64,000 bases of DNA. It comes from Heterotrichella gracilis (Eukaryota; Sar; Xanthophyceae; Tribonematales; Xanthonemataceae). Shown here one piece after another: positions 3,504 through 64,000 of the stretch. A program made the translations under genes and the position numbers. Under the pieces are notes generated by a model, which searched no databases, was not told the origin of the DNA, and was given only the letters and a program-made list of their open reading frames with translations. The stretch covers positions 1 through 64,000 of the forward strand of contig JAULBX010000003.1 in NCBI GenBank assembly GCA_032358255.1, in the 5' to 3' direction. Each line of letters begins with the position of its first letter. Within the stretch, counting starts at the first letter, position 1.

Positions 3504-6500
3504 TCAGAAAGAATGGAAACGCCCACAAGGGAAAAGCCAGGAACAGCACGCTCCATCTTGATGATTTGGCGAACTACCAAGTTGTGGCAAACCATCAAAT
3601 TGCTCAACGGGATCCAAAGTGACAGGTTCATCATCAGAAAATTCCTGTTGTGATGGTACTGCTGCATTTGGCACCCCCTGTGGCACCAGCGGCGAGCCAT
3701 CCAGCGCCCCATCCACCATCAATTTCCCACCCCCCATGGTCAACTTCGCCAGCTTGGCAGCCAGCTCAGCGGGGGGGCACCACAGCTCCCCATAAGCCAC
3801 TGGGTCGAATGAGTGCACCCACACGCCTCCCGATGCCATGCCATCATCGAGGCTGCTCCCTGCCGAATTGATGCGCGGTGGCCAGCCCTCCATCCGCTCC
3901 CACATCCACAGCAGCACATCCGCCACACCCGGCCAATCCACATCGAGGTTTGGGCCCAATTCAATGTAGCAGTAGGGGCTGAACCAGCTGGGGCAAGGGT
4001 CTTTGGCGAAGACCGCCCCCGCTGCCACGTGAGGGCACTCTACCTTGATGGAGAGCACCCGCCCCATGTCCCACATGCTTTTGCCCTTGACCACCAGGCG
4101 TTGCAGCGCAGTGAGGCTGGTGATGGCTGCTGGGAGGCTGAGGGTGGATCGAGACGTCACATTTTTCCAATCTCGTGAGCTGGTGAGGGGTGTAAACCCT
4201 AAGCAGAGTGAGGTGAGGCGTGTGAGCTCTTGGATGTTGCTTCCCAGCTGTGGATAGGTATCCTGGCACATGTAGCGGCTCAGGTACACCGAGAGGTCAA
4301 GCTCCACCAGGCCCGTCAAAGCCGCTACACCACGTGGCATCATCGAAGGGGATTGGCCGCCCCACTCTAGCACCTGCGCCGACAGAAACAAAGCCTGAGT
4401 AAACAACGCGTTTAGCATCGGTACATGCGACGCCAGGACAGGGCTGAGTGGCGCAAGCTGGTGAAGGCTGGCGGCTCACCGTGAACACTACATCCAGACC
4501 CTAAACCCTAAACCCTAAACCCAGTGGCGCAAGCTCGTGCAAGACTGGCTGCTGCTCTGGCTATACTGCTGGAATGCATCATGAATGTAATCGACTGTTA
4601 TCGACTACCTGCTGGACCAGGGAAGGAAACAATCCACGATGCTAACCTGTATGTATACCTGTACGCGTTCCTTTTCTTTTATTTCTTATTGTAATTTCTT
4701 ACCTGGCCCAGGCACAAGGCAGTGAGGCCATTTATTTCTTATTGTAATTTCTTACCTGGCCCAGGCACAAGGCAGTGAGGCCATTTATTTCTTATTCTAA
4801 TTTCTTACCTGGCCCAGGCACAAGGCAGTGAGGTCAGGCAAGCGCGCCAACGCTGCCAAGCTAGCCGCGCCGTCATCGTCTGAACTGAAACCCTCCAGCG
4901 TCAGGGCGGCAAGGTTGGGGAGGGTGCAGGGGAGGGCGTCCACCAAGGGGATCGGCAGCGACCCGGGGACGCTGCTGCTGCAAGCGGCGTGAAAGGTCAA
5001 GTTGCGCAGAGAGGTGCTGGCGCCGACAGGCAGCGGGGCTGGAGGAGCGCCCTCGCCTCCAGCTTCCACTGCTGTCATTGCCATGGCGCTCAGGAGGTCC
5101 CCAAGGCAGACATGCAGGCGCTCCAAGCAGGGGAAGCACTCCAGGTCAGCAGGGCAGGGCAGGTGCGTCAGGTGCAGGCGCTCCAGCAGCGTGAGTGTGG
5201 TCAGCTGGTTGGCCACCCCTTGTATACCCAGGACCACCTCCTCATCTGGTGCAAACAGCCTTGACTCTATGTAATCTGGCACAGACAACTCCAGGTCCCG
5301 CAGCTGAGTGTACGCCGCCACATGGGCCAGCCCATTCCGGATCTTGTCCCCCTGAGCATACCATGTCCTGGCATGCGGACCGTCCACCTCCATATCCACC
5401 TGCAGCCAAAAGCATAAGGATAGGATAAAATAATTATCTAGAATAAAAAATTAAAACGATCATCATTAAAAAACTAAAATCAAACTAAAATACAGATAAT
5501 AAAAACCATATCAAAAAAAAGCAGAGTAACAAAATCCAAACAACAACAACAAAAAAAAAACCATAATATCCACCTGCTGCAGCATGAGCTCCGCCATAAT
5601 GCTCAGCCCATCCTGAAGTTGGTGTGCAAACCCAGCATACGTTGTGGGACGCCCGCCAGCAGGCTCCACATGCACCCTCAGCTGTGTGAGCTCCACGCAT
5701 GCCGACAGGGCGGCCAGGGCGTCGGGGGGTACGCTACCCAGGTGCAGGTGGCGCAGCGTGGAGCCGCACGTGAGGATGGAGGCGATTGGCGCGCTGGGGC
5801 TGTATGTGTCGGCAGGGCGGGGACCAGAGTCGCGACCAGGGGGCACATACACTGTGTGGGGGAGGCACAGGCGCTGCACGGCAGGCATGCGGGGCAGCAG
5901 CCAGCGGGTGAGGAGGGTGTAGTAGGTGGCGGGGGGGCGGGACAGCTGGATGGTTTCAGAGGCAGGCGGGAACGTTGACTGCCGTGCCTGTTCACTGGGG
6001 CGTGCAGTGATCGCTTCTAGCACCTGTGCAGGGGGGGAGTATAGCAGTTGATACAAGGATGCAGTGCCGTGTGGTGCACCAGCATATTTTCTGTGGAGAG
6101 GTTAATTTATAAGGATGGTGTCTTGCACAGGCCACCAGCGATCGGGCTGCCAACAAGAGCGCAACTCAGGATACTACCAAACCCTGCGATCAAGCGCACT
6201 CAACACAGGCAATGTTGGGCCACCTCTGAACAAGTTGCCAAACAACAAAGCAAGTATTTTGTAGGCACAGCTGTGCAGGACACAACCTGCACAGGTTGCC
6301 AACAACATTGCAGAAATAAGGTCTGCATGAACAGGTAGACTTTAGGTCATGGTATTTGGGTGTACCTAGGCATGACAGTATCGAGGCATTACTTGGTGAA
6401 CATAGATGCCGCCCAGGGTTGGTTTCAGCACAGCACAGCGGGTTGCCAACACCACCTCACACAGACCTGTGCAGGGGTGGACACAACCTGTACACGGTTG

Positions 6501-6815
6501 CAACCAAGCCAAGTGTGCACAGGGGGTGACCTCCCTCCTCATCCTCACCTGCATGTTCTCCCACATGGCTGAGGGGCCTAGGCTGAGGCGGTGCCAGTCC
6601 TTGCACACCAGGGGGACGCACCGGACCCTGTCCCCCAGCCCTGTCTTGCCCAGTATGGACTGGAGGATGGCATCTGGCAATGCCTTGATGGTGGTGGGCC
6701 CTGGTTCCTGGAGGGTGGTGGGCTGTAGGGTTTGGAGGGTGGCAAGCGGCAGCGCCTGGATGGCTGGGGTGGCCTCTGGCACCTCCAGCGGTGGGGTGTC
6801 AGCCGTGGTGACCAT
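3504..6815 (-). CDS. F-box/LRR protein, cluster member B
   Basis: Four exons, all in matching phase 0: 6549-6815 (F-box; KALPDAILQSILG, VCKDWHRLS), 5574-6023, 4809-5399 and 3504-4373, giving 725 residues. After the F-box comes the family signature TYYTLLTRWLLPRMPA, then leucine-rich repeats and the conserved WVHSFDPVAYGELWCPP tail. The likely role is an SCF ubiquitin-ligase adaptor with an LRR substrate-binding surface (family knowledge; the target is unknown). Intron 2 is unusual: it is AT-rich, absent from genes A, C and D, and lies inside a coding segment that is present twice in B. Intron 3 is shared with gene D. The donor of exon 3 sits in a three-copy 53-base tandem repeat. The gene looks intact and is head to head with gene C. 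Confidence 0.88.
4498..4522. repeat. interstitial telomere-like repeat (CCCTAAA)n
   Basis: Three and a half copies of CCCTAAA inside intron 3 of gene B. This is the plant/Chlorella-type telomere unit rather than the TTTTAGGG of Chlamydomonas. Shorter versions recur in introns across the window (for example 17090, 20790, 36640, 48612). Confidence 0.85.
4691..4830. repeat. 53-base tandem repeat carrying the exon 3 donor of gene B
   Basis: The string ACCTGGCCCAGGCAC starts at 4701, 4754 and 4807, an exact 53-base period. The copy at 4807 holds the real end of exon 3 and its GT donor on the minus strand; the two others repeat the last exon bases plus donor within intron 3. Confidence 0.9.
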
Positions 6816-6830
6816 GGAGGGTTAGTGGGT

Positions 6831-6888
6831 GCAAAATAGCAAAATAGCAAAATAGCAAAATAGCTAAATAGCAAAATAGCAAAATAGC
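6831..6888. repeat. 8-base microsatellite (CAAAATAG)n upstream of gene B
   Basis: About seven tandem copies with one variant unit, directly upstream of the gene B start. Gene A has a single related unit (GAATAGCTCTGTGAAA near 2851) at the matching place, so the array expanded after the A/B duplication. Confidence 0.85.
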
Positions 6889-6982
6889 TCTGTGAAAACT
6901 CTGTGGATAGACCCACTCTTGGAGTGTCAGGGTTGTAGCACGCTATTGCCCAGCAAGCAACGATGTTGACAGAGATCTCGGT

Positions 6983-7011
6983 ATGCATGCATGCATGCAT
7001 GCATGCATGCA
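6983..7011. repeat. (ATGC)n microsatellite in gene B 5' flank
   Basis: About seven copies of ATGC roughly 170-195 bases upstream of the gene B start codon, matching the tract upstream of gene A in position and flanking sequence. Confidence 0.85.
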
Positions 7012-7330
7012 CGAGGCGCATCGAGTAGCCTTCCCAAAGTAGTTTGGACTCAGTTAAAATGTCATGGTTGTCGTATGCAAAGTTTTGCACTGTAGTGCAG
7101 GTGAGTGGTACCGGTTTGCACTTTGCATTGCCAGGCACAGTGGAACCATCTTGCTACATATACACCCCTGGCTTTTCAAAAAACGTAGCAAGGTTTGAAC
7201 CTCACAAAGTTGTTAAGCACCTGCCGCTGATTGCAAACCCATAGCCACTTCGATTGTTAGCGATTCGGAAACTGCCTAGCCCGGCGTTGCGGCGTGGCTG
7301 GTTCGAACGCATATGCATGCATGCCCCAAA

Positions 7331-7406
7331 CCTTGCTCCTTGCCCAGTACGCCTGCCACAGTAACGCTTGCAGCAAGCCTGGACTCCAAGTGCAATCCTT
7401 GACCTG
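7331..7406 (+). repeat. duplicated 5' flank, gene C copy
   Basis: Starts CCTTGCTCCTTGCCCAGTAC and stays similar for about 75 bases to 10093-10168 upstream of gene D. The copy lies about 60-130 bases upstream of the gene C start, so the C/D duplication included the proximal promoter. Confidence 0.8.
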
Positions 7407-7463
7407 TGCACAGTAGGTTTGTAAACCTACTCCACCACCCAGCTGGTCCACCACACAGTCTCC

Positions 7464-9475
7464 ATGGCTGATACACCCCTGCTGGAGGCGCCACACGCCA
7501 ACACCAACCAGGCTGACATCTACCAGGCACCAAGGCCCACCACCATCAAGGCGTTGCCACCTGACATTTTGCAGTCCATATTGGGCACGACAGGGCTGGG
7601 GGGCAGGGTCCGGGCCATCCCCCTGGTGTGCAAGGCCTGGCACCGCCTCAGCCTAGGTCCCTCAGCCATGTGGGAGGACGTGCAGGTGGGTCTGAAGCTA
7701 TGGAACGGAGAGGCGCGCACATTTATCTGAGTGCATTTGTGCAAGGTGTTGTCCTGTATTGCACGCCTGTTGATCTGCGCTGTTAATGGCAGACCGCTCA
7801 ACTGTTTGAGTTGCCAAACCCACAGAAGGCGGGCTTACCCTTGCGAAACTCCCTCGGCGTGCGAATAACCCTCTAGGGTATTGGTTTCTAACCTGTAGAG
7901 GCAGCCTGTATCCCCTAACAATACACGATTGGCACCTCTGAGACCCTCATGGTGCACCCTCCCGCACACAATTGAATCCTGGGACCTGCGTGGGCCCACC
8001 AGCGGCGGCGGGCTCAGTGCCAGCGGGCCAATCACCTCCATCCTCACGTGCGGCTCCACGCTGCGCCGGCTGCACCTGGGTAGCGCGGCGCCCGGCGCGC
8101 TGGTTGCGTTGTCAGCATGCGTGCACCTGACCCAGCTGAGGGTGCATGTGGAGCCTGTCAATGGGCTTGCCCTGCCTTGGAAGGAGCTTGTGCGCCTTGC
8201 TCGGGAGGGGCTGGGCCATGTGGCGGCGCTCACGCAGCTGCGGTGCCTAGAGGTGTCTGTCCCAGACGCCGTCAAGCCCACTGGGGGTTGGAGGCCTGGG
8301 GGGTTGGAGGCCTGGTGTGAGGAGCTGGCCTTGGGCATGGCGGGCGCATCCAACCAGCTGACCAGGCTCACATTTTTGGAGCATTTACACCTGGCGCACC
8401 TGCCCTCCCCGTCTGACCTCACGTGCTTCCCTCACCTGGAGCGCCTCCGAGTGTACCTTGGCTACTTGCTGACCGATGCGGCAAGGATGGGTCTTAGGGC
8501 TGGTCCGGCCCCGCTAGCTATCGGCCCCAGCACCTCCCTTCTCAGCCTCACTTTTGGCATTGATTGCGACAGCGGCATCGCATTCCCGCTGCCTTTGCTT
8601 GATGCCCTCCCCTCCTCCCTTCCCAACCTCGTCACCCTGGATCTGGATGATTTCCGGGCCTATCGCGATGATGTGGCCAGCCTGGTGGCGTTGACCCAGT
8701 TGTCTGGCCTCACTGCGTTGCGCCTGGGGCAGTTTGCGCACCCGCTGGACGACGGGATGTTGCATGGCGGGGTGCTTTCGCCGCCGGTGATGCCACGTCA
8801 GGTTGCCGTGTTGACGGGACTTGTGGAGCTGGATCTTTCCATGATGAACTTTGACGTCAATGAGGCGTACTACCCACAGCTTGGGAGCGGCATCCAGGCG
8901 CTCACATACCTTACTTTGCTGTCCCTAGGATACACACCGGCTTCCTACATTGACCGAAACGATTACTATGGATTGGTGCCAGTCCAAGCCACCCTCAAGC
9001 GACAGTGGGAGCTATCTTCACTCGGGCCCAAGACCCTGCCTTCCCCATCCCCTACTGCTACTTTGGCTCAAAGCCCGGCATGGAGGGTTGGCAAGGGGTG
9101 GCGGATGTGCTGCTGTGGCTGTGGGAGCGGCTGGAGGGCTGCCCGCCACGTGTCAGTGCGCCAGCTAGCAACATCGATGACGGTGCGGTGGTGGGAGGCG
9201 TGTGGGTGCACTCATTTGACCCAGCTGCCCATGTGGAGTTGTGGTGCCCGCCCGATGAGCTGGCTGCCAAGCTGGCGAAACCTGCAATGGACGGGATGCT
9301 GGATGGCTTGGCGGTGGCGCCATGGGGGGTTCCAGTCCCTATAGAACCAGAGCATGACTGTGAAGACTTTAGCACATTCGATCCGTGTGCACATGATCAT
9401 CGTGATGCTGCTTACCTAGAGCAATGTCACAAAGATAACCCCGATTTTGATCTTCTGGATATGTGTAATGATTAA
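7464..9475 (+). pseudogene. F-box/LRR cluster member C, decaying
   Basis: Exon 1 is 7464-7685 and carries an intact F-box (KALPPDILQSILG, VCKAWHRLS). The second exon most likely begins at 7899 or 7905 after a TAACCTGTAGAGGCAG acceptor and is open to 9344. Two lesions separate it from the paralogues. The block with TYYTLLTRWLLPRMPA at the start of the LRR body is missing. Near 8990-9003 a net loss of about 109 bases relative to gene D shifts the frame, so the last 115 or so codons before 9344 are unrelated to the family. The true family C-terminus (GSKPGMEGWQGVADVLLW, WVHSFDPAAHVELWCPP) survives in another frame to 9475. Because both halves are still well conserved, the damage is probably recent. 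A truncated F-box protein could still be made. Confidence 0.7.
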
Positions 9476-10092
9476 ACACTAGCACTAGGATTTTTATTAG
9501 AATATTCATGCGTGAGGGGGCTTTGTTCTTTGCGGTGCGGCAGACGTAATAATGGCATTGAATTTATCATTGAGCTTCTGCTTAGCATAGTTGGGTGAGT
9601 GTGGGTGCAACCCGAAATACTGGTGATGGGTTTGACAATGTGCTGCAAGCTCAGGAATATAGACCCCAATTAGGCAGGATATATTTATATGCATGCCTTG
9701 CATGCATGCCCAATATCCATGCTTGCATCAATGCATGCACTGCCATGCATGCAAGATCTCCAGTTGACAGAACTGCTCTTCGGCGATGAGCCTTAAGTAA
9801 TATAAAATAGCCAGCTGCTGTTCTGAAGTCTTAAGCAAACCACCAGTGGTCTTGACTGTTCCCTTTTTTGCCAGTCGTTCGGTATACCCCTTGGCCCCTG
9901 GAGCACTTCTTAACCCAACTGTACCACACCAACGTTGTGGCCTTCGGTTGACACTGTGTCGGCGCGCATATCGGTACAAGCTTCCTGTGCCACTGTACTA
10001 CGTGCTGGTGAACCGGAAGTTGTGCCTGCAGTTGCATCGACTCCGATGGTGTGGATAGGGAGGGGTTGTTGTGCAAGACCCTGCTGGTGGTG

Positions 10093-10168
10093 CCTTGCTC
10101 CTTGCCCAGTACGCCTGCCACGACGACGCTTGCCGCATCCCTGGCACTCCAACTGCGGTTCTTGCCCT
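10093..10168 (+). repeat. duplicated 5' flank, gene D copy
   Basis: Partner of the repeat at 7331-7406. It lies about 50-120 bases upstream of the gene D start codon. Confidence 0.8.
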
Positions 10169-10214
10169 CTTCAGTAGTGTAGAAAGGCGCGATTATCCAG
10201 TGCCCACAACCACC

Positions 10215-12915
10215 ATGCTGCCAGTCATAATGGGTGTTCCGCCAATGGCCACCACCACCCAGGCGCTGCCCCCTGACACCCTCCAGACACTACAGGCCAC
10301 CAACCTCCAGGAGCCAAGCCGTACCACCATCGAGGTGCTGCCAGATGCCATCCTCCAGCTCGTACTGGGCAAGACAGGGCTGGGGGACAGGGTCAGGTCC
10401 ATCCCTCTGGTGTGCAAGGCCTGGCACCGCCTCAGCCTGGGCCCCTCGCCCATGTGGGAGAACGTGCAGGTGAGTCTGAAAGCTGTGTTGGGGGAGAGGC
10501 GTGCACCTTTGGCGTACGGAGCGCACTGTTACTTGTGGTCCCCTTTCGTGCACGTACTTTGTGGTTACGCTGGTGTTGGTGACTGTTCAGCTGTGTCTAG
10601 ATGGCGCCCACGGTATTATGCTTGACCAACCTCTTGAGCTGCCCTTGGTGGATACCAACCTTCTGCACCAAGTGTGAAAACAAACCCTGTGAAACTAGGT
10701 ACAACCCATGTAGGACACACTGCATCACATGATATACTTAGCTCCTTTGAGACCCTCCAGGTGCTCGCTAGGCACCCTGCATCACTCTGTGGTGGTGACA
10801 TGCGTTTGAGCATCCTGCTCTACCATGCCGTGCAACAGATTGCCCTGTCATGGAACTGCTTATATAACTGGCGGTCCAGGTGCGATTAATCCATGTCACT
10901 GTGTTGACCTTCACTGCCCCTGCACAGATAACAGAAGCGCTGCGGACGGTAGTCCAGGCGCCAGAGAGGCATCCCGACCATGACCCGGATATTCAAGGGC
11001 CGGAAAGGCTGCCAACCTCTGTCCCCCTCTCCATCAAGCTGTCCCGCCCCCCAGCCACCTACTACACCCTCCTCACCCGCTGGCTGCTACCCCGCATGCC
11101 TGCCATACAGCGCCTGTGCCTCCCGCGCACAATGTACCCACCAAACCTGCGTTGGCCCTCCACCGCCGCCGGTTTCAGCGCCAGTGGACCAATCACCTCC
11201 ATCCTCACGTGCGGCTCCACGCTGTGCCGCCTGCACCTGGGCAGGGTGCGGACGGATGCGCTGGCTGCCCTGTCATCATGCGTGCACCTCACGCAGCTGA
11301 GGGTGCATGTGGAGGTTGCCGGCCCGGATGCTTGGACATGGTCTGATCATAGGGAGGAGATCCATGATGGGCTGGCGCATGTGGCCGCGCTCACGCAGCT
11401 GCGGCGCGTCAAGCTGGCACTGCCGGACTTTGTCAGGTCGTGGGAATCACGTGAAGGGACCTTGGGGATGGCAGAGGCGTCCAACCAGCTCACCAGCCTC
11501 ACACTCCTCGAGCGCCTGCATCTAAATCACCTGCCCTTCCCTACCGACCTCGCATGCTTCCCCCACCTGGAGCGCCTGCGCATCCACCTGGGCGAGCTGC
11601 TGGGCAATGTGGCAGCCAGTGGAAGCGGTGTGGGTGCAGCCCAGGTGCCTGTTGGCCCCAGCACCTCCCTCCGCAGCCTGACATTTGGCGCTAGGTACAC
11701 CCGCTATTTGTTCCCTGGCTTCAAGGTGGATGCCCTCCCCTCCACCCTCCCCAACCTCGCTACCCTGGAGCTTGAGGACTTGAGGCCCCAACATTGCGGC
11801 GCGCCTAGCTTGGCGGCGTTGGCGCAGTTGTCTGGCCTCACGGCGTTGCACCTGGGGCAGGTAGGCTAGTTAATACATGCATCCAAAGTAGCAGCCAGCT
11901 TTGCATGAGCTTGTGCCATTCAGCTGTCAAGTCCTGGCGTATTGCAAGTTGACTGTTGAATGGGTCAATTGTACTTTCCAGGAGTACAATTGACATGCAC
12001 GGGAGTGCATGTTCCTTGTACCACTTTCTGCATGTATCTTGTACTCAACAATGGTTCTGCCCTTGGCAGGTCGTGAGGGAGAGTCAGCGTGAGAATTGGA
12101 CTGACGGTGTGCTGGCCCCATCGATGATGCCCCATGAAGTTGCCAGCTTGACAGGCCTGGTTGAGCTGCATCTCTCGGCATTCTTCCATGGCCCTGGTCC
12201 CTCGGAGGCGTACTGCCCACGGCTCGACGGTGGCATCCAGGCACTCACACGCCTCACACTGCTTAGCCTGGGGTACACACCGGCTTTCGACATTGACCTG
12301 GGTTGCTTTGGGAGCTACTCAACAGAGCAGGCCACGATCAGCCTCCCAGCAGCCATCACCACCCTCACCGCGCTGCGACGCCTGGTGGTCAAGGGCCCAG
12401 TGGATGTGACATGGGACCCTCTGATGTCCATCAAGATAGAGAGCCCTGATGTGACAGTGGGAGCGGTGTTCAATCGAGCCCTGCAGCTCAAGTACCGGGG
12501 CTTCTACTGCTACTTTGGCTCAAAGCCTGGCATGGAGTGTTGGCAAGGGGCTGCGGATGTGCTGCTGTGGCTGTGGGAGCGGCTGGAGGGCTGCCCGCCA
12601 TGTGTCAGTGCGCCAGCTGGCAGCAGCGGTGACGGAAAAGTCACGAAAGGCGTGTGGGTGCACTCATTCGACCCCTTTGTCCATGGGGAGTTGTGGTGCG
12701 CCCCCTGTCAGCTTGCTACCAAGCTGGCAAGGTTGGCGGTGGGTGTGGGGCTGTACGGCTCCACTGCGGCGCCATGGGGTGTGCCTGCCCCGTATACAAC
12801 CGACCCCCCTTGTGATGATTATAGCACTTGGGATTCATACGAACCCACTCCGCGGGTTTCAACGCGACATGGGGATTCTGATTATGGAATCATCCATGAG
12901 TATCTGTCTTTGTGA
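10215..12915 (+). CDS. F-box/LRR protein, cluster member D
   Basis: Three phase-0 exons: 10215-10469 (F-box; EVLPDAILQLVLG, VCKAWHRLS), 10928-11860 and 12070-12915, giving 677 residues. The LRR body has the family TYYTLLTRWLLPRMPA segment, repeats such as LERLHLNHLPFP and LTLLSLGYTP, and the WVHSFDPFVHGELWC tail. The predicted role is an SCF E3 adaptor (family knowledge). Intron 2 falls at the same codon as intron 3 of gene B (LGQ/V), while genes A and C have no intron there. The start chosen is the first ATG after the duplicated promoter block; a second ATG six codons downstream (10233) is also possible. No lesion seen, so D and B are the two clearly intact members. Confidence 0.88.
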
Positions 12916-15375: not shown

Positions 15376-18300
15376 ATGGTTGGTAACCTAAGCACTGCAA
15401 TACCAGCTACAGTTAGTGCCCCGGGTGGGATTGCCTCCACCGGTCGCGGCCATGCTTTGCTGCCGCCACTGAATCCCATTGCCCTTTGTGCGTGTGCAGT
15501 TGCGGGCACCAGCAGTGGCTTAGTGGCGCGGAGAGCCACCCCCCGCAGCAGGGTTGGGCGGGTGCCCACGTTTGCCCGGGCAGCGCAGTCGGTATGTATC
15601 TTGACACCCTACGCCTCCTCTACCGAAAATCTAGCACAGCGCACACCAAAGTTGCATCTTTGTGTGCACAAATTAAATGTTCTTTGTGATGCCTGGGGTT
15701 GACACTGTTGGCTTCTCACCTCACCCTGAGATTCATGATTCCCAAATCTAAAGCCCACCCCCACTCCTCAAACAATGCGCGCCATGCCTTTCTTTATGCA
15801 CAACCTGTGCACACATTTGACAATATGTCATAATTTTTTTCATTGAGAAATGAAATTCACCCCTTATTTGGGGTCGTTGACAACCCAAATCCATGGCTTA
15901 TGCTTACCCCCTCCCCGTAGGACTCCCTCAACCTCCGCGCCATGTCCTCCCAAATGCGCGACATGCGCTCACAGATGGAGGAGGACGAGCAGCTGAAAGC
16001 CCTAATGCAGGGTTTGCGCGGCCAGAACCTCAGCGCAGCGGATTTCGCAGATGCGGACGTGGTGATGCAGCTGGTGGACTACCGAAGCGGGGGGGTGGGT
16101 GGGGATGAGGATGGGGATGTCCTCCCTCTGGATTATGACCCCGAGAGGATTGCGGAGTACTGGGAGCGGCGGCCGGTGTCTGTCATTACCCGCATCGCGC
16201 AGCTGCTGAGTGCGTGGCACAAACCTGAATCTCATCTGAAACCCTTCTGCATGCCCTGTGTAGGGTCTGCCATCACGCGCACCGCAGTGTCTTTCACCAT
16301 GCGCAATGTTGCCTGTGACCAAACCCTAAAACCCATCTACATTCCTGCGGCGTACCCCATGGATGCAGAATTTGTTTACCGCCACCCATTGGTGCTGTGT
16401 ATGGCCCCCATACTGCATATCCCTTGGCTGATTCTGCCATGCGTCGTGGTCATGCAAAGGGTCAGCTGATCACCACCAGGTTACCCTAATACACACTCAA
16501 AACCCTACCTATGCACCACCCTACCGCTGAACCCTGCCAAACCGCCTGCCCCCGCCAGGCATCTCCGGCGGCTTCCTCAGCAAGATGGCGTGGGACTGGA
16601 CGAGGGGCACCCTGGGCCAAAACGAGGTGGCCCGCGCCATCGAGCTACGAAACATCATGACATCCCTGGGACCCTTCTACATCAAGCTGGGACAGGCGCT
16701 GTCCATCCGCCCCGACATCCTGTCCCCTGCTGCCATGAACGAGCTGCAGAAGCTGTGCGACAAGGTGCCTTCATTTGACGACAAGGTGGCCATGCAGGTG
16801 GGTAATGATGTTGTTTGGTGGTGGTGGTGGTGGTGGGTGACGGTGGTGGGTTATGGTGGCAGGGGTGGTGGTGGTGGCGGCAGTGGTGGTTGGAACGGTG
16901 GTGGTGGTGGCGGCAACGGGGAATAGGGTGGTGGCGGTGGTCTTTGTGGTGGTGGGGGCTGGATGGGGTGTGGGTGTGTGGGTTGAGGTGGCCCTAACCC
17001 TCAAAGCTATGAACAACCCAAATGCTCAGCAGCGAGTGCTGTGGTATGCAAGTGGTGGAGCTGCCCCAGCCCTACCACATCTACAAACCCTAAACCCTAA
17101 CACATCAGATGCTCACCAGGGGGTGGTGTGTCACGCAGATGGTAGAGGAGGAGCTTGGCAAGCCTTACTACGAGCTATTCGCTGAGCTGTCTCCGGAGCC
17201 AATCGCTGCAGCGTCGCTGGGCCAGGTGTATAAGGGCAAGCTGAAGACGGGGGAGGCGGTGGCGGTCAAGGTGCAGCGGCCGGGGGTCCTGGAGACGGTG
17301 ACGGTGGATCTGTTCATTGTCAGGTGAGCAATTTAGGAGTTGGGGTTTAGGGGTTTATGAATTTCACGATGTGGTGCGATGTCGGAGGGCAAGCAGAGAT
17401 GAAATTCCCGCCGGATATAAGAAACACTCCTTGAGGAGATTCAATTTCAAATTCGTGGGACCATCAAGAATGGTCCAACACGCTGTGACAGCGACAATAC
17501 TTTATCAAGTTCGATCATCATCCATGTTCTGATTTCAGATCAGAATCGACATGTTGCTTTGATGCGTTTTTTTTTATCGCCTCTGATGACCTCTGATTGC
17601 AGGAAGATTGGCTTTTATCTGCGCACCTCCAACCTGCCGCACTGACATGATACCAGTGATTACCTCTGATCACCTCTGATTGCCCTCTGATTACCTTTGA
17701 TTGCAGGAAAATCGGCTTCTACCTGCGCACCTTCACCGACCTGCGCACCGACGTGGTGGCGCTGCTTGATGAGTGGGCAGCAAGGTTCTTTGAGGAGCTT
17801 GACTACATACACGAGGGGAAGAATGCAACCAAGTTTGCGGCGCAGATGCGCGACGAGCTGCCGCAGGTGGGTGTAGGGTTTTGGTGTGGGGTGTAGGGTT
17901 CGAGGGCCTTTGGCGGCGGCGCAGTGTGAGGGGCTGTGGTGCAGATGGTGGAGGCTCTGCCGTAGGTGTGCGTGCATACACTGGGGTTCAGCATGCAGAT
18001 CAGGCTGCCACTGCTCTGTTGGCAAGACATTGCAAAGGGGGGCGGCCTGCATGTAAATGCGTGGGTCTTTGCCCTCCTCCGCCAGATCATTACCACACAG
18101 ACCCCGCACTTTTTTTGTCCTTTCCTTATACACCCATTTCACCCTCCCTCCCTACCGCCAGGTTGTAGTCCCCCTGACCTAAGAGGAGTTCACCCCCCCC
18201 ACTGCTCACACCCTCCTCACCCTTTTGACCCTCCCCTTCCTACCCCCAGGTTGTAGTCCCCCTGACCTACGAGGAGTTCACCTCCCGGAGGGTGCTGACC

Positions 18301-21300: not shown

Positions 21301-21348
21301 CTGAGCAGGGTGACGGCGCGCGCCATTCGGGAGCTGTACGTGGGCTAG
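15376..21348 (+). CDS. plastid ABC1/UbiB-family atypical kinase (ABC1K1/ABC1K3-like)
   Basis: Eleven exons: 15376-15591, 15921-16209, 16559-16797, 17139-17323, 17707-17866, 18250-18406, 18691-18926, 19285-19548, 19899-20264, 20581-20779, 21104-21348, giving 851 residues with consistent phases. Residues 1-70 are Ala/Ser/Arg-rich with few acids, like a chloroplast transit peptide. ABC1K hallmarks are all visible: KLGQ near 211-214, the Ala-rich AAAS loop 271-274 in place of a Gly loop, VAVK lysine near 292, the EELDYIHEG motif, HADPHPGN near 419-426 and DFG near 439-441. The C-terminal extension (FFRDFLMDEIVKSIDAL) matches the long plastoglobule ABC1Ks, which act in prenylquinone metabolism and photoprotection (family knowledge). 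A Pro/Phe-rich insert (repeated FPGFPxFP) in exon 9 is specific to this protein as far as I can tell. Introns hold decayed copies of neighbouring exon edges. Confidence 0.93.
16817..16960 (+). repeat. GGT-rich low-complexity tract in ABC1K intron 3
   Basis: Starts at the tenth base of intron 3 after the exon 3 donor. Long runs of GGT/GGC make long Trp/Gly/Val frames on both strands that are not coding. Confidence 0.85.
17595..17645 (+). repeat. echo of ABC1K exon 5 start (decoy acceptor)
   Basis: TGATTGCAG followed by a copy of the first ~40 bases of exon 5 (GAAGATTGGCTTTTATCTGC), 104 bases before the true junction at 17706/17707. The copy soon runs into a TGA, and TCTGATTACC-type microrepeats fill the gap. 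Confidence 0.9.
18140..18205 (+). repeat. echo of ABC1K exon 6 start (decoy acceptor)
   Basis: Pyrimidine tract plus CCGCCAG followed by GTTGTAGTCCCCCTGACCTA, 88 bases before the real acceptor at 18249/18250. The copy has TAA where the exon has TAC, so use of this site would stop translation. Confidence 0.92.
18490..18535 (+). repeat. echo of ABC1K exon 6 end (decoy donor)
   Basis: GTCATCTGCTATCGGCAGCA and onward to ATACAG/GTAGTG repeats the last ~35 bases of exon 6 and its donor, 122 bases downstream of the real donor at 18406/18407. Confidence 0.88.
20358..20450 (+). repeat. chimeric echo of ABC1K exon 9 end and exon 10 start
   Basis: The first half (TGCCCCTGCCGCTGCCATGG) resembles exon 9 around 20200-20235. 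The second half, from 20402 (CAGCTCTGGATC...GTCTATGTTTTCC), resembles exon 10 at 20601-20650. The whole lies inside intron 9. Confidence 0.8.
20869..20932 (+). repeat. echo of ABC1K exon 10 end
   Basis: GGGCTGGGCCTGCAAGGGCT and the following GCGGGTGCCAAA repeat the 3' end of exon 10, including part of the intron after its donor (GTGCGCAAAACC), 133 bases downstream. Confidence 0.88.
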
Positions 21349-21390
21349 GGTTGAGGGGTTATGTTTCCAGGGGTTTGGCCGAGGCTGCGC

Positions 21391-21630
21391 AGCTGAGCCA
21401 GGAGCTGTGGAGTAGGGTGATGGCGAGGGCCATTCGGGAGCTGTACGTGGGCCAGGATTTTCAGGGTTTGTTGCCGGGCTGCAGAGGGTTTCCGAAGCCT
21501 GTGGTGCGCTCGGGCGGTGGCGGAGGCCCTGGTGTACATGCCTAGGTAAGGAGGTGGCGCCGCAGCCGAGCCAGAAGTTGTTGCGGAGAGTGACTGGGCA
21601 GCATGGGTCTTTACGGGGCTGTACGCGGGC
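21391..21630 (+). repeat. two echoes of the ABC1K last exon in the 3' flank
   Basis: 21391-21455 copies 21284-21348 (CAGCTGAGCCAG, CCATTCGGGAGCTGTACGTG) and 21559-21630 is a more decayed third copy. Both lie after the stop codon and would be 3' UTR or spacer. Confidence 0.9.
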
Positions 21631-24560: not shown

Positions 24561-24607
24561 GGAGCAGGTTGCAGTATATTGCTGTGAAGGCAGAGCACGC
24601 TGTACAA

Positions 24608-28899: not shown

Positions 28900-29090
28900 C
28901 CTTGCCCAACTGCAACAGCTGCGCCCAAACCCGCGCTCACGCCTTGGTCAACAGCACCCTCCTTGTGCCTCCCGCTCAGGCCTTGGCCGACTGCACCGAC
29001 TTGTGCAGCTGCGCCATGTAGGCCAGGTAGCAAGGCGCTGCCTGGTTGAAGTCCTCCACATAAAAAAAGGGCGTGCCTCATGCAGTGTGC
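28900..29090 (-). repeat. echoes of the SEC24 last exon in its 3' flank
   Basis: From 28978 (AGGCCTTGGCCGACTGCACC and onward) the sequence copies the 3' end of exon 16 at 29171 with a 193-base offset, including the stop-codon context. Shorter, more decayed copies of the same start (GCCTTGCCCAACTGC near 28901, GCCTTGGTCAACAGC near 28941) precede it. Confidence 0.88.
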
Positions 29091-29168
29091 CCCGGCAATA
29101 ACCGTAGCAAAGCTAATAGGCGCCCCTTCGCACGCGCAGCTGATGCCCAACCCCAAACCACACCGCAC

Positions 29169-44148: not shown

Positions 44149-45888
<1,740 letters not shown>

Positions 45889-46303: not shown

Positions 46304-46308
46304 TGTAA
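46304..46308 (+). terminator. possible MAPK polyadenylation signal TGTAA
   Basis: TGTAA, the usual poly(A) signal of core chlorophytes, lies about 415 bases after the MAPK stop and before the convergent gene at 46605. A five-base motif alone is weak evidence. Confidence 0.25.
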
Positions 46309-56403: not shown

Positions 56404-59400
56404 ATGAGTCCCCAGCCACCATACGGGGAAGCCACGCCTTGGGACCCAAGGTGCGCACCTGCCCTACAAACCCTTACTAACTGGCGTACTATGGTATGCC
56501 TACTTGCACAAATCTCCAGTACGTGTGCCAGAGCTAAGGGGCTTTTACTGGTCTCACAAGCTGGTTGCACTGTATGCCTGTCTCCAGTAGCCACGCCCAC
56601 CCCAGCCTGTCCCAGCAGCAGCTAGTTACCCTGCGCCCAAAACCTCCCACCCCCTAACCTCCGTTGCTCCTTCACTGTCCCACACTCTTCATACCAATAC
56701 TCCGCACGCCCTGGTCACCCTCCCACTACCCATACCTTTTGACGCAAACACACCCCCGAAGCACCCACACCCTTGACACCACACACCCTGCCACACCCAG
56801 GCCACCCCCGCTCGGGCCCAGCGGTTGCCCCGCCACTGGCTCAGCGCCGCAGCAGCCACAGTGGAGCACAGCAGCGTGGGCGAGGGGCAGCTAGGGGGCA
56901 AGGTGGAGGCAGAGCAGCTGTGCGAGGTGCGTGTTGGCCCCTACTGGTCTGCCGTTTACTAGTACACTGCACGCACAGGCAACAGGAGGGCAGACTACAG
57001 GCAGCAGCACCCTATGCCTTAACCCTCAAGAGGGCTCAAGGCAGAAACACCCTATACGTCAACCCTTACGGGGACCCCAGGCGGCAACACCCAGTTATAA
57101 CCTATAGCAGCTGCTGGCAGCTACCCTGGCCGCCCGCTTGGGCCCAGCAAGCAGCACGTATTACAAGCTGCTGGCATCGTTCACCGCATTGAGTACAGTC
57201 TGTCACAGCATATGCACCTGCACCTGCACACAGCAAGGCAAACCCCACTCCATACCCTCACACCGCCACCTAAACGCACTAACACCCTACAGCGCCAGCA
57301 CCTTTCACACCAGTGCGCGACAACTCCCACACACAAATACACTTGACACCAGCGTGCGACAACTCTCACACGCAAATAACCCACTCACCACGCCCTGACC
57401 TCTAACACCGCCCTCCCCAGGTGCTATGGTCGGAGCGCTTTAAGGTGTCCCCTTCCAGCCCCTACTACCCCCAGCACCTGCAGGCGCTGGCCACCATCGC
57501 GACCCACCTGCACACCCTCGGCCCCCACCCCCTGTGGCACTTGGTCACCTACCTCACCCAAGCGCACCAGCAGGGGTGCACAGCCACAGCCACAGCCGCA
57601 GAACCCTCCACCAGCGCAGCCACCACCAGCGGGCTGTGCGCGCGGCTGCCACTTGGCGGGCTGTCGGCGCGCGCCGCCGTCCTGGGACCCGCCTGGTCCC
57701 CGGGCCAGGTTGCGGAAATTTTGTATGGCCTGGTGGAGCTGGATGACATTGACGAAGAAGGGTTTTCGGCGCTGGCGCAAACCCTACACAATCGAACCAG
57801 CGGCCTCTCGGCGCTGCAGACCACCAACCTGCTGTTTGCGGTGGGCAGCCTAGGGTTTCGGAACGAAACCCTACTGACCCAGCTGGCGGACACCCTAGCT
57901 ATGAACATCCACGCGGCCCCCGCCAAGGGTTTGGCCAACGCCCTCTGGGGTTTTGCGCGCCTGGGCTTCCGCCCCCGGAACGGGGTGGTCTCCCAGATTG
58001 AAGAAGCTGCCATCGACAACATCAAAAGCTTCACCCCGACCTCTTTGGATACCCTCTTGTGGTCCTTCATCAAGCTGGATCACGTGCTCCCGGGGGTGTT
58101 CCTTGAGCGGCTGAGCGAGGTGGCCCTAGGCATGGCGTCTGAGCTTTCGCCGCGCACAATCACGCTGCAGCTGTGGTGCTACGGCAACCTGGGCCACATC
58201 CCGCAGAACTACCTGGAGTCGCTGGTGCAGGTGCGCATGGGCCAGGGGTTTAGAGGGTGGGTGATTGGGGTTGCATTGTGCCATTGCTGCGCGTGGGGGA
58301 TAGATGGGGGGGATGCTTTCATATGGGAGGATGCAGTGCGGCAGCAGAAGGGCGGGATGCCAGGTGGTATCTGCTGTATGGGGATGGCGATTCTCTGCAC
58401 GGGATCAAGTCGGCGGCAAATTTGGGTGTGCAACTGATTGGGGATACCGTATGTTGCATTGCTAGGTCTGGAAGGCAGGATGTCAGGGATTTGCACTAGT
58501 GCCGGTGCTGCACAGGGGGTTGATTGAGCTGGGATGCGTGGCAAGGAGCATCAGCAGACCTGAAGCCGTCATTCAGATACATGCTTAACAAGAAATCCAG
58601 GCTAATGGCTCAGCAACTGCCAAGTCAACCATCATAATACATCATGGGCCGGCTACATCCAGCCTCCACACCCGCGCATCATAACTGCATATCTGCCGAC
58701 CGTATATAAGAAACCGTATATTCACCTAATTCCATCCCCGCATCGCCCCCACCAAACACGCACTCCTCCCCTGGTGCAGGAATCTGAAAACAAGATCGAT
58801 TCCTTCACACCCCTTGACCTGGCTAACGCCATGCATGGGCTAGCCTCACTGGGCCACGGGCCCACAGGGCTGCTGTCCATCATCGCTGCAAAGGCGGTGG
58901 ACTCGCTACCTGACTTCTCACCTCAGGTGGGGGCCCTAGAATATGTACCTCCCAGTATTGTGATGTATGGTATGTGGACTTGTTGCTAAGGCAGGGGACC
59001 CTCGCTACCTGACTTCTCACATTGGATGAGTGATCTAGCTCGAATGATCTGTGATGTATGAGTAATTTTATGCTGAATCCCGAAATAATAAAAATCAAAG
59101 CCCTGACCAAAACCCTTATCAATCCCTGTTGCAGGCGCTGGCCAACCTGAAGTGGGCCTGCGCCAAGCTGGACTCCTGCACAGCACCAAAACCCTTACAA
59201 AAACCCTCATCAAACCCTTGTTGCAGGCGCTGGCCAATCTGATGTCGGGCTACGCCAAGCTGGACCACTGCACCAAAACCCTAACAAAAACCCTTACCAA
59301 AACCCTATCAAACCTCTCTCACAGGCTCTGGCCAACCTGATGTGGGGCTATGCCAAGCTGGACTACTGCACAGACGAGCTCCTGGCTGCCGCCTCCTCGC

Positions 59401-62400
59401 ATGCGGCGCAGCGGGCTGATGAGCTGTCGCTGCGGGATGTGGGCGACCTTGTGTGGGCATTTGCCAAGCTGGGGCGGGTACAGGTGGTGCAGCCCTCGCT
59501 GGGTGCGCTGTATGACAGGCTGCTGGAGCACCTGTGCGACAAGGGTACGTGGGGGGAGACCCTGAACCTTGGGATGGGAAGGATGCGAGGAGAAAGCGCT
59601 AATTGAAATGCTGCGCGCGTTCCAACAGTACCGCCAGACAGACATCCATTGCTCCATGCTCCCTCGGGTAGAATGCCCTCATTCGCATGAAACTTCGCCT
59701 CTCTTAAACAACGAGCGCCACCCAGCTCTCCCTTGGCTAGCACCGCTGGCGACTGTGAGGGTTAAAAAGGTTCACATGCGGCTTGGCGAAGGTTTCCATG
59801 TGACTCATTGGATGTCATACAATTAGAAGGGGATTCATGAAGGGCAAGGGAATCGCCCAGCTCACCCACGCATGTAACTAACCAACTAAACTAAGGGAAT
59901 GGCCCTGCTCATCCACCTCACCCCCCACCCACCCACCGACCCCCTTCCTCCCCTTGCAGACCTGGAGTCGGACGCCAAGCAGCTTGGCTGCGTGGCCTGG
60001 GCCCTGGCCACCCTTGAGCGGCCCCACCCCGAGCTGCTGGAGCGGCTGGGTGAGGTGGTGGGTGCGCGCGTGCCCGACCTGAACGAGATGGATGTGTCCA
60101 ACGTGCTGTACGCCTTTGCAAAGTTCCAGCACAAGCTGCCCATGTCGGCCCTGCAGGATCTGACGGTAAGGGCCAATGAGGGGGAGGGGAGATCTAGTAC
60201 AGAGGGAGGGTGTTTGGGGAAGGATCTTGTTTTGCACTTTAGAGACCCTTTGGGGGCTTGTTGTGCCCTTGTTTAATGGCTATTTTATGTATGGTTGCAA
60301 AGTTTCTGTCATGCGCTGCAGGACCAAGGGTAATCCTTGGCAGGACCTCACATTAAGTGCTGTGTTTTATATTTGTATTTCGCAATTTCTATACCCCCAT
60401 TTTGCTCACCCGCCTTCCATCTTACCCAGGACCGGTGCCTGGAGCTGCTCCCGGAGCTTCAGCCCAATGAGCTGGCTGTGATTGTGTGGTGCTGGGCGCG
60501 GCTCAACTACTACCCCTCCCCCACCACCATGGATGTGTTCATCGCGCATGCACAGGACAACATAAAGGACTTCCCGCTGGGGGTGAGTGATTGTATCCTT
60601 TTTTAAATCTGTATGTTGGGGATGCGCGGGATGTGTTAGTCAGCTTGTGTCTCGTGAATTTCATCGCATACTGGCATGGCTGATTACCCCACTCCCCTTC
60701 CCACCCCATCCCCCACCATTGCTGCATGTCCAGCACCAAAACGCATGACGTGATATTTTTACCCGCTCCCCCATCCACCTTACCCCCCAACCAACCCCCG
60801 CAGGTCCTGTCCATGCTGGTGTGGTCCACCGCCAAGCTGGCGCACTACTCGCCCTCGTTCCTAGACGCAGCCCTAGCTAGGGTTTCGGAGCACCCCGCTG
60901 ACATGGATGAGAAGGACTGGTGTGGCTTTGTGTGGGCAAACACCAAGCTCATGCACGACTGCTCGCCAGTGTTTGATGTCATCCTGAACCAGGTAAGGAC
61001 TCCTGAACTCTAAACCCTAGATCTCGAACCCTGGCACGGCCGCTTATGCCGTGGTCACCTGGTGCAACCCTGGACCCCGCTACCCTATTTCAGGGTTTGT
61101 GTGAGCCAATATCACGGTCATGCACAACCGTTCGCCAGTATTAGAGGTCATTTTGGAGCAGGTGGGGGACTCTTAACCTCAGATCTTGAATCCTAATGCC
61201 TGAGCCCTGGTATGAGGGGGTATGCCGCGGTATCACCCTTGTGCAGCCCTGTGGCCAACTACCCTACTTTAGGGTTTGTGTGGGCCAACACCCAAGCCCA
61301 TGCATGGCTGCTCGCCTGTGTTTTGATGTCGATCTGGCACCCTAATGCAGCCCTGTGAATCCCTGACCGTTGGGCTTTGTCAGAACCCAAATCCCTCTCA
61401 CCCACCCACCCACCCCCAGTTTGACCCCCCTCCCCCAGTTTGAGCAGCGGCCCGAGGCGTTTGAGCGCCCGCCATGACCTCAGTCACACTGTGGGCCTTT
61501 GCCTTGCTGCGACAGTGGCGCCAATGGCCACACTGCCCTTATTTTCAAACCCTTTGCCCCCCACCATCTACCCCGGCCACCCCATCCCCAATTTGATCCG
61601 CCTGCCCTTCTCCTTGCGTAATTTACCTTTCCCCCTCCCCCAGTTTGAGCAGCGGCCCGAGGCGTTTGAGCGTCCCGCCATGATCTCCGTCACGCTGTGG
61701 GCGCTGGCCATGCTGCGCCAGTGGCGCCACCCGCTGTACCGCCGCCTGCTGGACTCCCTGGCCACCTTTGACCCCACCGAGCAGTTTGGCATGGAGAACT
61801 TGAGACAAGTGCTGCAGGTGGGGCACGCGGGGTTGTAGGGTGCAGCCCGAAGGGTCTAGGATGGTGTTGGACTCCTTGCATGCTTTTTGACGGGATTCCT
61901 CCTGAAATTGAGACCGCGGGCCAGGTGGGCCCAACCCACCACCCACCACCACCATCCCACCATACCTGCCCAACTCACCCACACCCACCCCTGACCCCAC
62001 CCCCAGGCGCACCTCCTGGCAGTGGCAGAGGGCCAGTACACCCCGGAGGACCTGCCCCAGTCCTACCGCAGCGTGGCGCGCAAGGTGTGGCAGGAAACAT
62101 CCACCCCTGCATCGGGCCAGCCCTGGCTGGTGCGCTGTGTGAGCGCTGCACTGACCAGGATAGGCGTGGAGCACGTGTGCGGGGCGCACACCGATGACAA
62201 CTTGCTGGTGCTGGATATAGTGCTGTCGCGCAAGGACAAGGTGGGTGGGTTTTATCCTTTGGTGGAAACAGGGATATGTGTAGGGTAATGTACTGCTGCA
62301 AAATCCTGTTTTAGGGTTACCAGGGAAGGATTGGGGGGTGGAGCGTGTGTGCTAGATGTAGCGCTGTCTCACGAGGGCAAGCTGGGAGGTGTGTTGCTGG

Positions 62401-62760
62401 TTTAGGGTCCCCATCGTCACCCCAGACCCCAAACCCCTAGGTTCCTGAAAAGGTCAGTCCCCAACCCAGCCCGTCCATTCCCCACCGGTTGGCATCCAAA
62501 TCACCCGCCAGCCCCCACCCACCCGCCCACCCCCCAACCCCGTACAGGTCGCCCTCCAGATCATCCGCCAGTTCCACACGGTGCGCAACCACCCCACCCG
62601 CCTCATGGCGCGCACCGTGTACCGCGAGCGTCTGCTGGTGGCGCAGGGCTGGCGCCTGGTCACCATCAGCCACCGCCAGTGGAGGGCGGTGCGGGACCAG
62701 GGCTTTGAGGCCGAGGAGGACCTACTGGTGCAGCTGCTGCGCACGGTCATGGACGGGTGA
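56404..62760 (+). CDS. RAP-domain / OPR-type organelle RNA-binding protein
   Basis: Exons 56801-56926, 57421-58230, 58780-58926, 59325-59544, 59960-60165, 60430-60582, 60804-60992, 61644-61817, 62007-62240, 62548-62760 join in phase; a first exon 56404-56493 is tentative, giving about 853 residues. The body is a tandem of helical repeats marked by ANALWGFARLG, ANLMWGYAKLDY, GDLVWAFAKLG, NVLYAFAKF, VIVWCWARLNY, MLVWSTAKLAH and FVWANTKLMH, as in chloroplast OPR/FASTK-like RNA-binding proteins. The last 70 residues form a RAP domain (TRLMARTVYRERLLVAQGWR-type, then VTISHRQWRAV). Such proteins bind specific plastid or mitochondrial transcripts and control their stability, splicing or translation. 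The N-terminus (TPARAQRLPRHWLSAAAA) would suit an organelle transit peptide. Several exon edges have decayed copies in the neighbouring introns. Confidence 0.88.
59131..59324 (+). repeat. two echoes of RAP-gene exon start (59325)
   Basis: TTGCAG/GCGCTGGCCAAC at 59135 and TTGCAG/GCGCTGGCCAAT at 59227 copy the real junction CACAG/GCTCTGGCCAAC at 59325, with spacings of 92 and 98 bases filled by AAAACCCTT-rich intron sequence. Neither copy has a donor, so neither can be an internal exon. Confidence 0.93.
61110..61345 (+). repeat. two echoes of RAP-gene exon 60804-60992 end
   Basis: 61116-61190 (GTCATGCACAACCGTTCGCC and onward to GAGCAG/GTGGGGGACTC) and a fainter copy around 61290-61335 repeat the exon end CATGCACGACTGCTCGCC...AACCAG/GTAAGGACTC. 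The first keeps a plausible donor. Confidence 0.88.
61415..61525 (+). repeat. echo of RAP-gene exon start (61644)
   Basis: CCCCCAG/TTTGAGCAGCGGCC at 61439 copies 61644 for about 80 bases, 205 bases upstream. One base is missing in GCGCCCGCC (exon GCGTCCCGCC), which shifts the frame. A further five-base stub (CCCCCAG/TTTGA) lies at 61420. Confidence 0.92.
62336..62410 (+). repeat. echo of RAP-gene exon 62007-62240 end
   Basis: GTGCTAGATGTAGCGCTGTC and onward copies GTGCTGGATATAGTGCTGTC at the end of the exon, about 141 bases downstream. The donor GT of the copy is lost. Confidence 0.85.
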
Positions 62761-64000
62761 GAAACCCTAAGGAAGGGTTCCTTTGTGGTTGAAAGCCCCA
62801 CGCAAGGGTTTCTCCTTTCCTACATCAGGGCCTGAGAGGAGCCGTACGCACTAGTCTTCAGGGCGGTGCAGGCCAGGCGTTGAAGCGGAGCAGCTGTTGT
62901 GGACGGTTGTGGACGGGTGAAGAGAAACCCTAAGCAAGTGTTTGTCTTTCTTGGGCGAACCCCACACAGGGGTTTGTTGGTCGTACTGACCAGGCTTTGG
63001 ATTGGGAAGGCCTGGTTGTGCCTCTGTGAAAGGGAATATTGACAAGAACTCCTTTAGCTCGAAAGCCTATGTAGGGGATGGGTACCCTATGCCAGGGTTG
63101 TCGTGGTGCTGGTGTTGAGGGCGGCCATGAATTGAGGAGGAATACCCATTGCAAGGGGTTGTTATTTGGGTTCTACCCTAGGTAGGGAAGGGTATTGGGA
63201 GGAGGGCCTGCTGGATGAAACCCTGTAGAGCCTCAGGGGTGGAGACATGGGGAGGTCAGAATGTTTTTTATGGGTTGGGGCAATGGGCCAGGGGGTGATG
63301 CTGTGTGGGAAATGGTGGAGAGTGGGACTGGGGAAGGGGGATGCAGCAAGCCATGGCATATGCCCAGCTGGGGAGACGTGGAGTGCAAAGTACAGTAGTC
63401 GGTGGCCTCAACTTGAGGCTTGAGTGCTCAATGCGTTTGCGTTGTTGCAGCCAGCGTTTGTTTTCTGGAGAGGTTTGGTGTTGATCTTTAAGGTTTTGAA
63501 CCCTGCTATTGCGCTATTAAGGGGTTTAGTGGGTATAAGGCAGCACAGCGCATTTATCAGTGTGGGAATCATACAAGGCGGACTGAATTGTGTGGCTACA
63601 GTCGTGGCATCTGTTGGAATTTAAGTTGCCAATCATATGCGGCATGGGTTGACCTTGCCAAAAAAGACATGGGGTAAATTATCCTCGCAATGGGTTTGGG
63701 ATTGGCGGGTGTCCTATTACCCTAAGGGTTGGCGTATCCCAGGCAGCCAGGTAATACGATAGCATATGTGTATATATGTGTGTGGTGGTATGTATGTGTG
63801 TATTTTGCCTGGCTGTCACCTGTGAGCGTCTCCTTCCTACTTTCTTTCTTCTGTGGGTCTCATCTTCCGAAATTCGTTTTGCTGTGCAGCTTGGGGGTGG
63901 CATCCATGTGACACTCTTCTCTAGTGGCAGCAGAGAGCGAAAGCACTTCAGTACTGGTACTCCTCCTCCATTGTACAAGCCTTGGACCCCGAGTGGCGGG
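62761..64000. other. 3' flank of RAP gene
   Basis: Begins with a decayed copy of the last exon end (62885-62930, GTTGTGGACGGGTGAAGAGA). The rest is GGGTTT/GGGGTT-rich spacer with a TGTG-rich stretch near 63770-63810. No gene recognised to the window end. Confidence 0.5.

Follow-up and report, generated by a model that had tools for sequence, protein, structure and literature searches.

The stretch considered here, a window of 64,000 nt comprising the initial 64 kb of a 457-kb contig (C2) of the Heterotrichella gracilis genome (68.5 Mb in 903 contigs), carries predicted genes for F-box-like, ABC1K, TPPP (p25-alpha), SEC24 and RAP proteins, whose exon edges are accompanied by imperfect local copies of the splice junction, hereafter called echoes. 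The analysis covered 304 kb of the same genome, made up of C2:1-264000 and 40 kb of a second contig (C13). Exon and intron calls are predictions of a self-trained, length-aware gene finder, which after training had the consensus CAG/GTR.GT for donors and TGCAG/G for acceptors (the slash marking the splice site) and yielded 50 genes in the 304 kb with a median exon of 165 nt and a median intron of 318 nt; 385 introns entered the downstream counts. A gene finder with geometric exon lengths was discarded on account of its drift to micro-exons (2309 introns, median exon 18 nt). Some gene models look merged, namely the F-box gene with ABC1K and RAP with the gene following it. Among the window proteins, Pfam recognized p25-alpha, Sec23/Sec24 and FAST_1 clearly, F-box-like exactly at the cut-off and RAP with a score under it (22.0 versus 24.2 bits), and the best named matches of the ABC1K protein were found in the green algae Micractinium (76% identity, 70% of the query) and Tetradesmus (75%, 69%). 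ABC1K was the gene checked exon by exon against homologs: 10 of 11 tested exons were matched by all eight homologous proteins and the first exon (15500-15591) by none of the eight, with four of five ABC1K echoes unmatched and that at 20856 touched by no more than the end of a single weak match.

Twenty non-redundant local duplications lie in the window, 13 of which span a predicted junction and one of which is exon-only, placed within its exon at 17 nt from an acceptor. Together the 14 edge events are distributed over the F-box gene (1), ABC1K (5), TPPP/p25-alpha (1), SEC24 (2) and RAP (5). The count of at least fifteen echoed edges given in an initial annotation of this DNA was correct to within one or two, all 14 events falling in the five genes that it named; their measured start-to-start spacing is 53-205 nt. 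The other duplications are four gene-end pairs (three in ABC1K 21260-21647, one in SEC24 28975-29349), one intron-intron pair and one exon-exon pair. Read in the frame of the genuine exon, the echoes at 17580, 18131 and 61426 each reach a stop codon, and the RAP echo at 61426 also carries a frameshift and is parted from its source at 61631 by a 107-nt spacer without telomere repeat. The features are as follows.

4678-4836, minus strand: F-box gene, exon end plus donor in three 53-bp tandem copies, 98% identical over 106 nt; real junction 4808/4809
17580-17735, plus strand: ABC1K acceptor echo, 87% identical; copy 17580-17631, real 17684-17735, exon from 17707
18131-18286, plus strand: ABC1K acceptor echo, 90% identical; copy 18131-18198, real 18218-18286, exon from 18250
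18373-18538, plus strand: ABC1K donor echo with telomere-like spacer; real 18373-18416, copy 18495-18538
20399-20643, plus strand: ABC1K duplication of exon sequence alone; 20399-20444 in the intron, 20598-20643 in the exon
20723-20930, plus strand: ABC1K donor echo with telomere repeat in the spacer; real 20723-20797, copy 20856-20930
20789-20802, plus strand: exact telomere 14-mer AAACCCTAAACCCT, ten bases inside ABC1K donor 20779/20780
21260-21647, plus strand: end of the last ABC1K exon, three copies in the 3' flank
26501-26732, minus strand: TPPP (p25-alpha) acceptor echo; real 26501-26545, copy 26687-26732
28975-29349, minus strand: piece of the last SEC24 exon in the 3' flank; source 29168-29349, copy 28975-29152
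29832-29977, minus strand: SEC24 donor echo, 89% identical; copy 29832-29877, real 29932-29977
34060-34279, minus strand: SEC24 donor echo with a telomere-like piece in the spacer; copy 34060-34133, real 34208-34279
58887-59038, plus strand: RAP donor echo; real 58887-58939, copy 58984-59038
59096-59371, plus strand: RAP acceptor echo, intron end (AAACCCT runs) plus exon start three times; real exon from 59325
60924-61322, plus strand: RAP donor echo, 69% identical; real 60924-61142, copy 61093-61322
61426-61729, plus strand: RAP acceptor echo, 91% identical, abrupt ends; copy 61426-61523, real 61631-61729
62727-62975, plus strand: RAP donor echo, 73% identical; real 62727-62811, copy 62887-62975

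Duplication of exon edges is confirmed over the 304 kb. Self-comparison gave 236 raw pairs, 193 of them with a score of at least 22; 181 pairs passed a shuffle test, 157 of these also with simple repeats masked. By itself the shuffle test is too permissive, since 45 of 110 control pairs got through; of the 109 raw pairs in the reversed-sequence control, seven passed the complexity-masked score. An entropy filter was abandoned because it lost 51 of the 193 pairs, real ones included (20723/20856, 18131/18218), and was replaced by tandem-repeat masking for the final set. On C2, 75 of 95 direct pairs scoring at least 24 stand no more than 600 bases apart and 71 no more than 300, whereas none of the 27 inverted pairs on this contig lies within 800 bases and the complement control gave none there. 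The duplications are local and direct-only and, as the reversed and complement controls yield few or no pairs, beyond chance. The final set holds 111 non-redundant events: 50 junction-spanning, 16 in which an exon-only copy is paired with an intron copy, 19 intron-intron, 7 exon-exon, 7 covering several junctions and 12 intergenic-touching or mixed. Echoes are borne by 60 of 770 junctions, of which 35 are donors and 25 acceptors, and are spread over 24 of the 50 genes. This set served for event classes, breakpoints, the simulation, the resampling by gene, the comparison of spacer and far sides, the homolog check and intron lengths; an earlier set of 112 events served for telomere coverage of spacers versus introns, segment-to-splice-site distances and the geometric null, and the distance-identity test used the 181 shuffle-passing pairs.

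Such a picture could arise in principle from uniform neutral duplication, with edges standing out through the slower decay of exons, which is the reading that the initial annotation itself had set against its proposal of a local duplication process with an exon-edge excess. A simple geometric null gave 36-39% junction events among junction and intron-only events, and a simulation with random positions, decaying copies, slower decay of exon copies and shrinking alignments showed that decay and geometry alone produce 43-47% edge events. The observed share is 66 of 85, and in pairs at least 85% identical it is 24 of 31 as against 37-40% simulated; bootstrapping by gene (23 genes) places the share at 70-85%, and with one best event per intron an edge is involved in 53 of 62 introns, or 20 of 23 for young ones. 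The size of this excess is approximate, because the simulation lacks indels and hypermutable intron tracts. An edge preference exceeding the decay artefact is supported, the proposed local process with its edge excess is borne out, and neutral duplication is very unlikely, the more so as the clustering of telomere sequence at donors, described below, is independent of exon conservation. The excess may stem from biased breakage at edges or from biased survival there, and the surviving scars fit both.

The breakpoints have a characteristic geometry. Intron sequence accounts for 27% of the length of edge copies in the 23 young events and for 33% over all 60, versus 43-47% simulated; these figures omit the six of 66 edge events whose exon copy lies more than 7 nt from any junction. 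In 19 of 24 young rows, with one event listed twice, the intron part measures 0-32 nt, and 21 of the 24 have an exon part of 28-96 nt; of the 16 copies classed as exon-only, 10 stop within 6 nt of a junction. The intron-side breakpoints are therefore read as lying mostly just inside the splice site, a pattern which selection for certain outcomes could mimic. Several young pairs have abrupt ends with an uncopied spacer between the copies, and a spacer of at least 10 nt is present in 91 of 112 events, so that copies are mostly not adjacent. An origin of the copies from mRNA was considered, since exon-only copies end at junctions, and was set aside; in the single case seen by eye (181278-181350) the echo stops short of upstream exon sequence.

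Several contigs, C70, C140, C609, C717 and C770 among them, begin directly with arrays of (CCCTAAA)n, and TTTAGGG is on that account the telomere repeat of the organism itself; the same repeat has been described as the ancestral one of green algae (PMC8226300). In C2 and C13, AAACCCT is the intron 7-mer with the largest excess (159 versus 7.1 expected), and in the 68.5 Mb the 14-mer AAACCCTAAACCCT with at most one mismatch has 20,180 matches, overlapping matches in longer arrays being counted separately, whereas its reversed pattern has 126. The proportion of sequence covered by telomere-like 10-mers is 2.84% in introns, 0.81% in intergenic DNA and 0.29% in exons; seven letter-permuted control words cover 0.34-0.80% of introns, and 137 of 385 introns hold some telomere-like 10-mer. 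These tracts peak near donors: of 262 intronic telomere segments 67 lie 8-45 nt from donors versus 25.7 expected, and in duplication-free introns 44 of 141 do so versus 16.0 expected, with 44 near acceptors versus 30.4 expected over all introns. Genome-wide, donor-like sites have 996 C-strand motifs at 2-32 nt versus 381 at 100-130 nt and 1371 G-strand motifs versus 499, and acceptor-like sites have 1614 C-strand motifs at 10-40 nt versus 986 at 110-140 nt and 1179 G-strand motifs versus 1007. Telomere-bearing introns show no 5' bias in genes with at least four introns (27/103, 30/86, 45/95 and 31/72 over 5'-to-3' quartiles). Beyond the window, eight loci among the first 100 listed hold two to three exact occurrences of a donor-plus-telomere pattern 65-116 nt apart (C23:72994-73245, C15:16491-16740, C12:125981-126122 and five others), and therefore window-like echoes exist elsewhere in the genome. 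At C26:17005-17480 there are five near-identical units with TTAGGGTTT and TGCAGG, spaced by 87 nt in four.

Spacers between copies are enriched in degenerate TTTAGGG telomere repeat: the telomere-like share is 11.2% in intronic spacers versus 2.1% in intron sequence not involved in duplications, and either the spacer or a copy contains telomere sequence in 53 of 112 events. Two young pairs, 189606 and 181168, illustrate this, being 92-96% identical with abrupt ends and having spacers of 33 nt (26 telomere-like) and 36 nt (20 telomere-like). For the 56 edge events whose spacer measures 15 nt or more, 30-nt flanks of the echo are 15.8% telomere-like on the spacer side versus 5.6% on the far side (by event, spacer side 15, far side 5, both 1, neither 35; p = 0.02), and with 40-nt flanks the spacer-side excess has p = 0.01. 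This asymmetry bears on the idea that telomere-like, unstable tracts came first and that replication slippage or unequal exchange re-copied the neighbouring exon edge, an order of events which agrees with the telomere tracts near donors of duplication-free introns and with units in which every copy carries a tract (C13:5622-5954; C23:72994/73106/73218). Slippage would place a tract on the far side of the echo too, and many spacers have none at all, which makes this order of events improbable. The initial annotation had seen the local process and the edge excess, and had missed that the copies are direct-only, that breakpoints lie near splice sites and that the filler is telomeric.

Orientation of the spacer repeat, scored on tracts of 10 nt, is 7 G-strand and 2 C-strand at donors and 5 C-strand and 0 G-strand at acceptors, and 5 and 1 in exon-only events. 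It is this orientation, together with the C-strand preference at acceptor-like sites genome-wide, that speaks for selective retention, whereby breaks, duplications and telomere insertions would fall evenly and those by splice sites would be kept, either because telomere-like sequence aids splicing, with G runs following donors and CTAA and pyrimidines preceding acceptors, or because copies across a junction do least harm; the short intron parts of the copies could likewise mark the harmless ones. A strand-specific splicing signal, however, predicts a strand difference near donors, where the genome-wide enrichment is alike on both strands, and we regard retention, with these causes, as a serious though rather unlikely explanation.

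For the explanation that we put forward, the chances seem about even: the echoes would be the scars of staggered double-strand breaks mended just inside the splice site, with telomere filler likely from telomerase. Nicks on opposite strands, tens of bases apart, would leave complementary 3' overhangs across the junction; telomerase could add one to a few repeats to a 3' end, the overhangs would be filled in via CST-Pol alpha-primase, and end-joining would seal the filled ends into a copy-filler-copy arrangement, with exon edge, telomere filler and exon edge arising in one event. One copy would then be spliced out, making such an event near-harmless at a junction or within an intron and harmful within an exon, and the intron would gain length at its end every time. 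Upstream of acceptors, filler of the C-strand type may in addition provide branch-point-like and pyrimidine-rich sequence. The roles of telomerase and of fill-in are inferred from mouse, rodent and primate systems. In mouse cells, breaks with complementary 3' overhangs undergo CST-Pol alpha-primase fill-in and joining and give rise to small direct duplications (PMC8355091), and in rodents and primates telomere repeats have been inserted at internal breaks, probably by telomerase, with target-site duplication at 6 of the 130 interstitial telomeric loci in rodents and 4 of the 25 in primates (PMC2246262).

Several observations weigh against staggered breaks healed in this manner. The copies measure 30-240 nt and so exceed the overhangs of 43-49 nt in the mouse breaks (PMC8355091), and the genome-wide enrichment after donors is alike on both telomere strands (2.6 and 2.7 times), unlike a one-sided extension by telomerase. 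The enrichment near acceptors is not significant in duplication-free introns (25 versus 18.8 expected, sd 4.0), nor is the spacer-side excess with 20-nt flanks (10 events versus 5, p = 0.15). Of the 56 edge events with spacers this long (15 nt or more), 36 lack a 10-nt telomere tract between the copies, and the filler is often something else, as in the 61426/61631 pair.

Introns with a duplication have a median length of 432 nt (n=62) versus 294 nt for those without (n=323), and after subtraction of the edge-echo units the median of the former is 276 nt. Of junctions with two echoes there are only three, and in all three the nearer echo is the more similar, the order that successive accretion would produce; over all pairs tested, the link between distance and identity is weak (rho -0.25, p 0.04, n 65). 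As introns are longer with duplications and nearer echoes are more similar, introns likely grow from their ends. The fuller proposition, that introns accrete at their ends through breaks by splice sites which are healed with telomere repeat and copy the exon edge each time, is offered tentatively, and we lean somewhat against it. Intron birth by tandem duplication was considered and rejected: among the tabulated junction and exon-intron rows, a single echo (201094-201136) abuts the far splice site of its own intron and fits it, the other tabulated echoes looking like additions to existing introns.

A duplicate flanking an insert also resembles a target-site duplication, as would be left by mobile introner-like elements with long duplications of this type. 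The copy lengths vary widely, and between masked introns more than 5 kb apart only 18 matches were found in the 304 kb; of eight inspected, four tie the gene region at 98 kb to that at 112 kb, one intron to the next in the manner of paralogs, and the other four tie few introns through short pieces. Introner-like elements are accordingly a barely credible source of the echoes. Short pieces of 32-101 nt, 81-90% identical, are common to introns of distant genes (C2:4374-4808, 72459-72749, 86885-87347, 91899-92360) and are perhaps remnants of a small mobile element.

The echoes share with the mouse overhang duplications (PMC8355091) that both are direct, local and small; those, however, come from 43-49-nt overhangs in induced breaks, and here there is mostly an uncopied spacer, often with telomere repeat, and the events gather at splice sites. 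Internal telomere repeat is likewise common to the interstitial telomeric sequences of primates and rodents (PMC2246262) and of human and horse (PMC7215372), whereas those studied here are far more numerous and shorter (20,180 fourteen-mers in 68.5 Mb) and enriched in introns and near donors, human intron insertions fitting random placement (PMC2246262, PMC7215372). New introns of Daphnia have exon-terminal direct repeats tied to staggered breaks, and internal repeats are said to lengthen them (PMC4202315); their repeats are 4-12 bp long, shared with the adjacent exon and placed at the opposite end of the new intron, in contrast to copies that are mostly 30-240 nt long, within existing introns and telomere-associated. 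Similarly, a 2025 survey of intron-border repeats deals with direct repeats at or near splice sites and credits insertion at breaks (PMC11782384), but its repeats of 4-30 bp pair the two ends of one intron, whereas here one exon edge is paired with a copy inside the intron; telomere terms, within the portions of its text found, are confined to the reference list. Plant telo boxes are short AAACCCT motifs as well, for which telomerase action on free 3' ends at open sites has been proposed (PMC3022908), yet they cluster towards the 5' ends of genes and seldom occur in introns, for which one table row, likely for rice judging by size, gives 72 per Mb (PMC3022908) as against 1207 per Mb for AAACCCTA in the introns studied here. 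Among titles and abstract beginnings, mostly of open papers and hence not a demonstration of absence, none described an enrichment of telomere repeat in the introns of algae. Insertions in rice accompanied by tandem duplications were reportedly treated by Vaughn and Bennetzen in 2014.

These observations address the open question of how introns lengthen and why their lengths differ between lineages, since exon edges that are re-copied and padded with telomere repeat make intron growth countable, datable through copies of different age, and testable. If staggered breaks healed with telomere repeat are the cause, DNA of chromosome ends would be a standing building material of introns, and the enzymes that maintain chromosome ends would be linked to gene architecture far from those ends.

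Other repeats were met along the way. In introns, GTGGGTG, CCCACCC and their relatives are 9-13 times over-represented and form a second simple-sequence component beside the telomere repeat; CATGCAT/GCATGCA, absent from the exon list, exceeds expectation 12-16 times in the introns of C2 and C13 and 14-16 times in their intergenic DNA. Within the low-complexity N-terminal portion of SEC24 (35350-35606) there are exon-exon tandem repeats of 60 and 24 nt, a coding minisatellite. F-box units, recognized by eye in the translations, stand side by side over 488-12778; the F-box-like gene at 488-6815 contains two similar units and the model that follows opens with two more. Between two genes, at 6831-6888, the 8-mer GCAAAATA occurs in about seven tandem copies.

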